Shown: piece by piece, positions 36,770 to 45,616 of the stretch
Layout: each line of letters begins with the position of its first letter
How positions within the stretch are numbered: position 1 is the first letter of the stretch
NCBI GenBank assembly: GCA_020853095.1
Contig: JADYZN010000040.1
Span: 1-64,000 of the forward strand
Length of the DNA stretch: 64,000 nt
Source of the DNA: Phycisphaerales bacterium
Lineage (GTDB): Bacteria; Planctomycetota; Phycisphaerae; Tepidisphaerales; Tepidisphaeraceae
Reading direction: 5' to 3'
Program-made: the position numbers and the translations under genes
Notes under the pieces: generated by a model
The model's input: only the letters and a program-made list of their open reading frames with translations
Told to the model about the DNA's origin: nothing
Databases searched by the model: none

Positions 36770-37588
36770 ATGGCCAAAAGCTCCTGTCGATGCAAAAAAG
36801 CCGGCGAATGCGAAGAATGCCCGGAGTGGATCTTCACCTTCGCCGACCTGGTCATGCTGATGATGGGGTTTTTCGTGATCCTGTGGGTGCTTAAACCCAA
36901 CCCCGACCCCAAGGGCGCGGACGATTCGGCCGCCGTCGTCGCGGCCAACGAGGAATGGCTGGAGACCGTCGCCAGCATTCGTGGCGGCTTTGGCTGGGTT
37001 CCAGACCCCTCCAGCAGCGATCCGGTCGATCAGGCCGCCATCCGCCGCAAACAGCGGCTCAACGGCCCCGGCGAAGGGGGTAAAACCAACCGCCGTGCCG
37101 AAGGAGCCCCCGGCACCGATTACGAAGTGACCGGCATCCGCCCCGGCAAGGATGTCATGGTCGGCGGCCGGCTGCTGTTTAATCCCGGCGAGGCCCGACT
37201 GACCTCCGACACCGTCCATGCCCTGGATTCGATCGTGTCGTTGATTCGCGGCCATCGCAACATCTTCCTGATCAAAGGCCACACCTCTCTGGATGATCTG
37301 CCAGACAACGCCACCGCCCAGCAGAAGATGGACCTCTCGCTCCAACGCGCCCAGGCGGTCGCAGACTACCTGATCTCCAAAGGCGTGGAACCGGAAATTC
37401 TTCGCGTGCAGGGATGCTCCACCTTTGAACCGGTCGCCCGGCGGGCCTATACGGATGATGTGAGAATCCTCAATCGCCGCGTTGAAATCACCGCCACGGC
37501 CACGCTGGTTGAAGACCTTCAGGATCGTCCCACCACCCAGCCCACCACCGCCGATTCCGCACGGCCGGCCGAAACCAAATCCCATTAA
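36770..37588 (+). CDS. motB: Flagellar stator protein MotB/PomB
   Basis: A 272-residue protein: short cytosolic N-terminus, one membrane helix with the ion-binding aspartate in FTFADLVMLMMGFF, a plug/linker region, and an OmpA-like peptidoglycan-binding domain (residues 125-245, including LIKGHTSLDD and NRRVEI). The N-terminus has four cysteines (CRCKKAGECEEC) just before the helix; vibrio PomB has a CxC there too. The OmpA domain implies a peptidoglycan wall. Confidence 0.9.
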   Translation: MAKSSCRCKKAGECEECPEWIFTFADLVMLMMGFFVILWVLKPNPDPKGADDSAAVVAANEEWLETVASIRGGFGWVPDPSSSDPVDQAAIRRKQRLNGPGEGGKTNRRAEGAPGTDYEVTGIRPGKDVMVGGRLLFNPGEARLTSDTVHALDSIVSLIRGHRNIFLIKGHTSLDDLPDNATAQQKMDLSLQRAQAVADYLISKGVEPEILRVQGCSTFEPVARRAYTDDVRILNRRVEITATATLVEDLQDRPTTQPTTADSARPAETKSH

Positions 37589-37666
37589 CGACGATTTCGG
37601 CCCTCCCCCGTCACCACGTTCATGGGTTATCCTGCGGCCGATCCCTTGTTCCACCCGGAGCAATCC

Positions 37667-39052
37667 ATGCCGCTGGAAACCTATCGCGACAAACGACGAT
37701 TCAACAAAACTCCCGAACCTCCCCCGTTGTTCAACAAGAGCGACCATCCGCCGATTTTCGTCATCCAGGAACACCACGCCTCGCGTCTGCATTATGATTT
37801 TCGACTCGAAGCGGATGGAGTACTCAAAAGCTGGGCGGTCCCAAAAGGCCCTTCGATGAACCCTTCGGACAAACGCTTGGCCGTTGAAGTCGAAGACCAT
37901 CCTTTGGAATACGCCAATTTTTCCGGCGACATTCCTGAAGGTGAATATGGCGCCGGCCACGTCGATATCTGGGATCGTGGAACCTACGACAATCTCATGG
38001 CCGCCAAGCCCGAACCCCTGAGCCTTACTCAATCCATCGACGCCGGGCATGTCGAAGTCGAGTTGCACGGCCAAAAATTAAAGGGTGGTTTTGTTCTGAT
38101 ACGCACCCGTGGCTTTGGTGGAAATAAAAAAAACTGGCTGCTGATCAAGATGAAAGACCGTCATGCGGATCATGATCCCAAACCCGCCACGCCCATCGCC
38201 AACCCGCCGCCGCAAAGGGTCCGGTTCACCAACGCGGATAAGATCCTGTTTCCGGAGTCACGGATCTCCAAAGGCGACCTGATCAAATATTACATGGATA
38301 TCTCCGGCCGAATGTTGCCGTATCTGAAAGATCGCCCCATTACGCTGGAACGTTTTCCCGATGGCATCGCGGATGACTCGCCTCGTTTCTGGCAGAAAAA
38401 TACGCCGAGCCATTACCCCAAATGGATCCCCCGCGCACGAATCCCCACCACGGATGGCAAACCCGTGGATTATGCGATTGTCAACAACGTTGAAACCCTC
38501 GCGTACCTGGTCAATCAGGGGACCATCACCTTTCACATCTATTTTTCCCGCATCCAAACCCTCGATCGACCCGACTTTGTCCTGTTTGATCTGGACCCCG
38601 GCGATGCACCCCTCACGAATGCCATCCGCATCGCCCGCCAGATTCACGCGTTCTTGAATCCGCTGAACATCCCCGCCTTCGTCAATACCACCGGCAAGCG
38701 CGGTCTGCACATCCTGGCCCCCTGGCATCAGCCCGGCGGATACGACCAGGCCCGCGCGTGGGCATTGCGAATCGCCGAACAGGTCGTGCAAGCCATGCCC
38801 AAAATCGCGACCCTCGAACGCCGGCTCGCCGCCCGCGCCGGCCGGGTCTACGTCGATGTCATGCAAAATGCCCTCGGCCACCATTTCGCTTCCCCTTATT
38901 CCATCCGCCCCACACCCCAGGCCACCCTTTCGGCCCCGCTGCAATGGCGTGAGCTGACCACCCGGCTGGATCCCGCCCGATTCAACATCAGAACCATCCA
39001 AAACCGCGTTTTGCGCATGAAATCCGATCCCATGGCCCCCCTGCTGAAATAA
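37667..39052 (+). CDS. LigD-like protein: 3'-phosphoesterase and polymerase domains, no ligase
   Basis: A 461-residue fusion. Residues 1-175 are the LigD 3'-phosphoesterase domain (HHASRLHYDFRLE, WAVPKGPS, GEYGAGHVDIWD), which trims 3' ends to ribonucleoside-OH. Residues 195-450 are the archaeo-eukaryotic primase-type polymerase domain (NADKILFPES, LFDLDPGD with the metal aspartates, TGKRGLHILAPW, VYVDVMQNA). The ATP-dependent DNA ligase domain found in most three-domain LigD proteins is absent, and no Ku gene is near. GGAG precedes the ATG at 37667. It should work in end-processing and fill-in during non-homologous end joining or break repair. Confidence 0.88.
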   Translation: MPLETYRDKRRFNKTPEPPPLFNKSDHPPIFVIQEHHASRLHYDFRLEADGVLKSWAVPKGPSMNPSDKRLAVEVEDHPLEYANFSGDIPEGEYGAGHVDIWDRGTYDNLMAAKPEPLSLTQSIDAGHVEVELHGQKLKGGFVLIRTRGFGGNKKNWLLIKMKDRHADHDPKPATPIANPPPQRVRFTNADKILFPESRISKGDLIKYYMDISGRMLPYLKDRPITLERFPDGIADDSPRFWQKNTPSHYPKWIPRARIPTTDGKPVDYAIVNNVETLAYLVNQGTITFHIYFSRIQTLDRPDFVLFDLDPGDAPLTNAIRIARQIHAFLNPLNIPAFVNTTGKRGLHILAPWHQPGGYDQARAWALRIAEQVVQAMPKIATLERRLAARAGRVYVDVMQNALGHHFASPYSIRPTPQATLSAPLQWRELTTRLDPARFNIRTIQNRVLRMKSDPMAPLLK

Positions 39053-45269: not shown

Positions 45270-45521
45270 ATAATAAAGAACCCGGTCCAGATGGAACCGG
45301 GTTCTTCGCAGATGTTGCTGCTGTGCGCTGCATTGGCAGCCGCGTAAGCCACGGGAATCTCACCCGCGGATGCTGCCTACAGCAGCCCACTCATACAGTA
45401 AGAAGTCAAGGATCACCTCCATTTCCAGTTGGGCGAATCGCCCAAGGCCATGCCCAGCCGTCGCGTTGTCCGCCGCCAGGCTCTAACTCCCGCAAACGCC
45501 TTTGCGGGAACGATTGAGGTA
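45270..45521 (-). ncRNA. Unidentified structured small RNA, about 250 nt
   Basis: A stable RNA gene is indicated by a near-perfect promoter, several hairpins and a terminator with no long frame between them. From the 5' end: a 9-bp hairpin (arms 45501-45509 and 45488-45496), a 7-bp TTGGGCG hairpin, the sequence GGAGGTGATCC (45410-45420) which is complementary over 11 bases to the usual 16S rRNA 3' end, a TTG that could start a 10-codon peptide (45377-45409), a nested GC-rich stem region, and an 11-bp terminator. I could not match it to tmRNA, RNase P, SRP or 6S RNA by eye. It fills most of the 420-bp gap between the membrane gene and guaB. Confidence 0.6.
45276..45306 (-). terminator. Terminator of the small RNA
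   Basis: 11-bp perfect stem (AAGAACCCGGT at 45276-45286, ACCGGGTTCTT at 45296-45306) with a 9-base loop; on the minus strand it runs into TTCTTTATT. It may also end transcription of the membrane gene on the plus strand. Confidence 0.75.
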
Positions 45522-45527
45522 CGAGAC

Positions 45528-45557
45528 ATTATACGTTACGAACCGGCGCGGAATCAA
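45528..45557 (-). promoter_or_regulatory. Promoter of the small RNA
   Basis: Minus strand TTGATT (45552-45557), 18-base spacer, consensus TATAAT (45528-45533). Divergent from the guaB promoter. Confidence 0.75.
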
Positions 45558-45616
45558 AATTATTTTTTTACAAAATACCGAATTCGTTGTCGTTGCGGAA
45601 TATTGTGACGGTAAAC

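Follow-up and report, generated by a model that had tools for sequence, protein, structure and literature searches.

What kind of gene, if any, lies on the minus strand at about 45522-45270 of the window, the whole 64,000-nt stretch of planctomycete DNA analyzed here? A sequence-only reading of the region from promoter to terminator (~45557-45270) had pointed to a minus-strand promoter, several hairpins, a match to the 16S rRNA 3' end, a TTG followed by a 10-codon frame ending in TAG and a terminator, and all of these elements were located as it had described them (see the table). The RNA that they delimit has a predicted fold of -118.6 kcal/mol, compared with -94.7 kcal/mol for dinucleotide shuffles (z = -5.1). 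The feature as a whole is bigger than the reader of the sequence could see at the time.

Features of the minus-strand RNA gene, in window coordinates
Feature	Position	Strand	Basis or remark
Sigma-70-type promoter, TTGATT-N18-TATAAT	45528..45557	-	10/12 matches
5' hairpin, TTCCCGCAAA-GGCG-TTTGCGGGAG, GNCG tetraloop	45487..45510	-	Loop GACG or GGCG in most homologs
Second 5' helix, GCCTGGCGGCGG...CGCGACGGCTGGGC	45453..45481	-	Strands conserved in family f1, recognizable in f4
Local hairpin TTGGGCG-ATT-CGCCCAA, just 5' of the Shine-Dalgarno	45429..45445	-	Fold
Extended Shine-Dalgarno, GGAGGTGATCC	45410..45420	-	11 nt complementary to 16S 3' tail
Mini-ORF, TTG ACT TCT TAC TGT ATG AGT GGG CTG CTG TAG (MTSYCMSGLL*)	45377..45409	-	Frame and stop conserved
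3' hairpin, helix a:d around helix b:c	45327..45388	-	Fold and covariation
Helix a:d	GGGCTGC 45388-45382 with GCAGC 45331-45327	-	
Helix b:c	GCAGC 45376-45372 with GCTGCC 45340-45335	-	
Apical hairpin CCGCGGG-TGAGATT-CCCGTGG, T-loop-like loop	45349..45369	-	Both partners change in columns 84/106 and 90/102
Intrinsic terminator hairpin, 14-bp stem	45275..45307	-	Terminator scan and fold

The obvious candidates for such an RNA are the known families, and a search against the 6S, tmRNA, SRP and RNase P models in Rfam had been proposed as a check. When this was carried out, no known family was found that explains the RNA: at the gathering cut-offs of Rfam 15, the window gave no match anywhere and the homologs (distant families included) none at the RNA. 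With the threshold relaxed to E = 10, the locus returned only weak chance matches to unrelated families. Weak matches to rnk_pseudo and McaS were taken as chance in the same way. For tmRNA, the RF00023 model matched nothing at the locus up to E = 10, and a bona fide tmRNA is present on another contig of the same genome, at G000:C34:55732-56090; moreover, a tmRNA-type tag frame, which has neither a Shine-Dalgarno (SD) nor a start codon, is unlike the frame found here, with its extended SD and a GTG, ATG or TTG in 124 homologs. The models for SRP RNA (RF00169) and RNase P RNA (RF00010) likewise had no match at the locus, and both RNAs were located elsewhere in the same genome (C13 and C65), the SRP RNA being of the small type. 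The idea of a divergent 6S RNA is not supported, as RF00013 gave no match even at E = 10 and the fold contains no long bubbled rod; 6S candidates, mostly sub-threshold, were found at other loci of relatives, and two genomes (G007 and G010) carry both a sub-threshold candidate and the RNA. Separately, repeated CTGAGGA units at L003:793-888 form a long near-perfect inverted repeat, which was the source of a spurious match to a miRNA family.

We then turned to the distribution of the RNA. By blastn, matches were obtained in 14 of 101 relatives, all within one family of Phycisphaerae. A covariance model built from the 3' half of the RNA (R1) matched 17/26 genomes of the window's family and 84/397 Phycisphaerae, and the iterated models R2 and R3, rebuilt in turn with newly found members, detected a homolog in 56/392 and 116/392 Planctomycetota genomes, respectively. 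The last figure is roughly a third of the sample, in a search set that includes some genomes that contributed to R3, and all of these prevalences are lower bounds because large searches apply stricter filters. Outside the phylum, R3 at E <= 0.001 matched none of 32 genomes (Bacteroidota, Firmicutes and others). Throughout the R1-R3 series there was one copy per genome, with no second RNA in any genome that had a match; the two matches in G010 are the two ends of a single RNA broken between contigs. Conservation, the lack of which had been named beforehand as an argument against a gene, was thus observed across Planctomycetota, and this retention of the element across the phylum, as judged by comparative analysis, rules out a chance origin.

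A few loci at the margin of this set deserve mention. The blastn match L018 and the model match L235 were set aside as unrelated. At L235, positions ~1840-2090 (G527:C81 ~37,520-37,770) hold a tandem array of two or three mini-ORFs rich in Lys codons (MKKSKPSPKKK*, MKKSKPSPKK* and MKKGKGCSPKK*), every one of them having an SD-like block of its own; they are probably unrelated to the RNA family. At L200 and L201 (family f18), the SD, the start and a 13-codon frame are kept and the standard 3' hairpin is apparently missing; these are either divergent members or chance matches.

Is the RNA a gene of its own or part of a neighboring transcript? In the window, TTGATT-18-TATAAT is the sole promoter-like site within 2 kb (0.6 in shuffles) and would place the start of transcription near 45522, while promoter-like sites with at least 9/12 matches lie upstream of 55% of homologs, compared with 7% of Markov-shuffled upstream regions. 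Terminators were found in 106/119 homologs, compared with 15% of shuffles. In the window, the terminator had been called perfect; its stem at 45307-45275 is 14 bp long, and its T-tail TTTATTATG is good rather than perfect. The next gene downstream is convergent in the window, and across 74 homolog loci (rough ORF calls) it is convergent in 41 and codirectional in 33, with no common downstream gene among them. With gene names assigned by eye from translations, the neighbors were seen to vary: guaB in the window's genus only, and fusA, ilvC, a TatD-like hydrolase and others elsewhere. The suggested comparison of syntenic regions upstream of guaB therefore carried no further than the sister genome, since the arrangement breaks down outside the genus, where the RNA is kept and its neighbors are not. 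Because the neighbors differ while promoter and terminator travel with the RNA, it stands alone: the gene is independent of its surroundings and has a promoter and a terminator to itself.

The most conspicuous element within this gene is the SD. The 11-mer GGAGGTGATCC occurs once in the 64 kb, counting both strands, and in all 49 long ORFs of the window the SD match at the first ATG is at most 6 nt. A 16S gene was sought in the window's own draft genome and not found; in two relatives, however, all three 16S genes examined end in GGCTGGATCACCTCCTTTCT, and GGAGGTGATCC therefore matches a real anti-SD. The 11-base match to the 16S tail proposed from the sequence is accordingly borne out, with positions 45420-45410 complementing the tail of the relatives. 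Nearly all homologs carry an SD-like block of 9-18 nt of 16S-tail complement, and contiguous Watson-Crick complementarity of at least 11 nt was found in 110/124 of them (usually 11-17 nt, maximum 18). Departures from the complement are commonly A to G or C to T, which preserve a G-U pair with 16S. Planctomycetes are listed among the phyla with a small fraction of SD genes (PMC5397173).

We also asked whether the SD is exposed or hidden within the RNA. In thermodynamic folds of the homologs it was no more exposed than the rest of the RNA when compared with background. Internal anti-SD sequences showed no general excess, being present in the 5' part of 24% of homologs compared with 34% of controls, and in the 3' part of 50% compared with 35%, where the top cases are mostly terminator T-runs. 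General sequestration of the SD by an internal anti-SD was therefore rejected, there being no overall excess over controls. In family f50, by comparison, the lineage of L249 and L255 has GATCACCTC pairing with the SD; the internal anti-SD, GGATCACCTC, lies right after the 3' hairpin, and the fold predicted for L255 joins it to the SD of the same RNA. Going by this predicted pairing, the f50 anti-SD would be a lineage-specific lock on initiation, not a general one.

Downstream of the SD, the mini-ORF of the window runs from a TTG start (45409-45407) through 10 codons to a TAG (45379-45377), as had been read directly from the sequence, and its frame is conserved in 123/124 homologs, where it closes after 9-17 codons (mostly 9-14). 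Among the 124 homologs, start codons were GTG (92), ATG (25) and TTG (7), situated 5-10 nt past GGAGG, and stop codons were TAG (61), TAA (36) and TGA (27). A stop within codons 7-17 was present in frame 0 in 123/124, compared with only 2 and 8 for frames +1 and +2. Since the start codon was picked partly by frame length, the evidence from phase weighs more than these counts. Counted from the start codon, the GGCTGC helix strand keeps one phase in 55/56 homologs, whereas counted from the SD its phase is mixed (29/24/3); the frame is therefore kept relative to the start codon and not to the SD. Gaps inside the frame are mostly multiples of three. Three homologs with a later ATG and a similar frame, and one with a degraded SD, were left out of the 124. 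In L124 and L129 the frame is not ended at the usual place. Only L124 (G007:C155) clearly departs from the frame rule: a 19-nt hairpin inserted in its mini-ORF shifts the frame, which ends only after 23 codons, in the T-loop-like hairpin.

The peptide behaves differently from the frame. Peptides differ strongly between families, and over 346 pairs, which are not independent, pS was 0.279 and pN 0.267; with pN equal to pS there is no purifying selection on the amino acids, and a function of the peptide is disfavored. Cysteine is present in 69% of peptides, and there is local consensus (e.g., CDCT[RK]GL), but Cys is encoded by TGT in 116 cases and by TGC in 8, so its conservation points to a constraint on the RNA or on the codon. 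Computationally, these comparisons show a frame under selection to stay open, in phase and closed by a stop just within the conserved hairpin, with no selection on the amino acids that it encodes. Because the frame is kept while pN equals pS, we infer that selection probably acts on translation and not on its product.

The last codons and the stop fall in the 5' part of the 3' hairpin, whose pairing we examined in 55 homologs from the class that do not belong to f1, the family of the window. In these homologs, 88.7% of the a:d/b:c cells pair, double changes occur in 12/13 pairs, and the covariation score is 0.234, compared with 0.123 when shuffled and at most 0.10 when slid. In contrast, the alternative pairing a:b plus c:d scored 0.136 against 0.122 for shuffles, barely above control. 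The apical hairpin is an insertion in the b:c loop that is specific to family f1; its loop, TGNRANN closed by G-C, is T-loop-like and may possibly be a docking element for tertiary contacts. The local hairpin 5' of the SD is compensated in the sister genome (TGGGACG/CGTCCCA). GNCG loops were spotted by eye first, and the sequences in which they had been seen then served to count their enrichment: 85/124 homologs have a hairpin with a GACG-like loop 5' of the SD, compared with 16 expected from shuffles, and 38/124 have a hairpin with a GNCG loop shortly after the stop, compared with 2.7. In 63 homologs, compared with 9.5 expected, GACGG lies no more than 45 nt from the stop; it typically sits 9-14 nt past the stop, roughly where the edge of a terminating ribosome falls.

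As to what the RNA does, we favor, with a probability of roughly 50%, a planctomycete small RNA that stands alone, acts in trans and is built for ribosome occupancy, with a fold that reports translation. The extended SD would capture 30S subunits, and the ribosome would read on into the base of the 3' hairpin, halting there with the stop codon in the A site. Judging from geometry, a ribosome at the stop would leave helices a:d and b:c unable to form; when initiation or the supply of ribosomes drops, the hairpin would close and the ribosome-free fold would be adopted. The GNCG-loop hairpins that flank the frame, on one side or on both, are likely sites for a protein or a partner RNA, and the RNA may thereby signal ribosome availability or translation state in trans. 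A narrower proposal, which we offer tentatively, is that this would be a core RNA of Planctomycetota and a message without a product, in which the frame is conserved for nothing except seating the ribosome at a stop inside a structural switch, so that the RNA acts as a trans sensor of ribosome availability. To our knowledge, there is no stand-alone example of regulation of this kind. The ribosome-binding regulatory RNA that the sequence-only reading had listed among its possibilities is supported by the extended 16S complementarity and by the reading frame conserved across the phylum.

The nearest rival is a decoy or parking RNA, in which the long SD would hold 30S subunits (or 70S initiation complexes) instead of serving productive translation and so lower or store initiation capacity, a form of RNA-based hibernation. 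Such a role accounts well for the SD itself, since 11-17 nt of complementarity exceed the needs of initiation and are kept in a low-SD phylum, with changes that often retain G-U pairing. However, frame and stop are both conserved, although an in-frame stop would be superfluous in a pure decoy, and the RNA would have to be abundant enough to titrate ribosomes; we regard this explanation as unlikely. The strong SD, together with the conserved start, frame and stop, would also suit a dual-function or peptide-coding small RNA with the 9-14 residue peptide as its product (a signal, or a small membrane or antimicrobial peptide), for which the frequent cysteine and the local consensus could be cited. 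Against it stand the equality of pN and pS, the strong divergence between families and the bias toward TGT, which points to RNA or codon constraint, and we consider it quite improbable.

Two further readings seem to us very doubtful. The RNA might be a cis-acting leader or attenuator of the next gene, and the earlier description as attenuator-like holds for its anatomy, which is that of a leader minigene: the stop is inside the hairpin region, where it separates the first from the second of four segments, and a terminator comes next. It fails in that nothing is attenuated in cis: the downstream gene is not conserved, is randomly oriented and is convergent in the window, a terminator belongs to the RNA itself, and covariation lends the a:b/c:d pairing weak support, all of which argues against cis attenuation. 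Similarly, a helper in 30S maturation or quality control would pair with the 16S 3' end and offer new subunits a short test message. Complementarity that runs deep into the 3'-terminal part of the tail (AAAGGAGG...) and the complete minimal start-to-stop message after the SD would be in keeping with this proposal, but it is purely inferential, and nothing found among the neighbors connects the RNA with rRNA genes or with maturation factors.

The RNA represents an unnamed family spread over a large bacterial phylum, and it has the strongest SD-16S pairing in the window, among organisms that mostly do without SD; it thus offers a handle on the use of the anti-SD in low-SD bacteria. That the frame is conserved and the peptide is not gives a clean comparative sign that the function lies in translation as such. 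In literature searches we found no description of the RNA. The Rhodopirellula-1 motif, a candidate RNA of Planctomycetes and Proteobacteria that has no Rfam number (Weinberg 2010, PMC2864571), could be compared by its table description only, and it differs in that it seems to be listed there as likely cis-regulatory (PMC2864571).

Among known systems, leader attenuators of the trp/his type share with the RNA a short leader ORF, a stop within the hairpin region, a terminator after it and, as proposed here, control of the fold by translation, and the RNA has a short ORF ending inside its hairpin region, with translation judged from conservation. In contrast to those leaders, it stands alone, with no conserved downstream gene or consistent operon in cis, it has no run of one regulatory codon, and of its two pairing schemes the nested hairpin is well supported and the competing one weakly. 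Like tmRNA (ssrA, RF00023), it is a stand-alone RNA of similar length with a short frame used by the ribosome, but it has an SD and a start codon and no recognized tRNA-like domain or CCA end. With 6S RNA (RF00013) it shares being small, structured and stand-alone. The dual-function RNAs of the SgrS/SgrT type also combine an independent small RNA gene with a small ORF, whereas here the peptide is not conserved and the SD, the frame and the flanking hairpins are. CsrB/RsmY-type RNAs resemble it in having an enriched, repeated loop motif (here GNCG) that suggests a protein-binding site; in the present RNA, however, there are usually one or two such hairpins, the loop is not GGA, and a translated frame lies between them.
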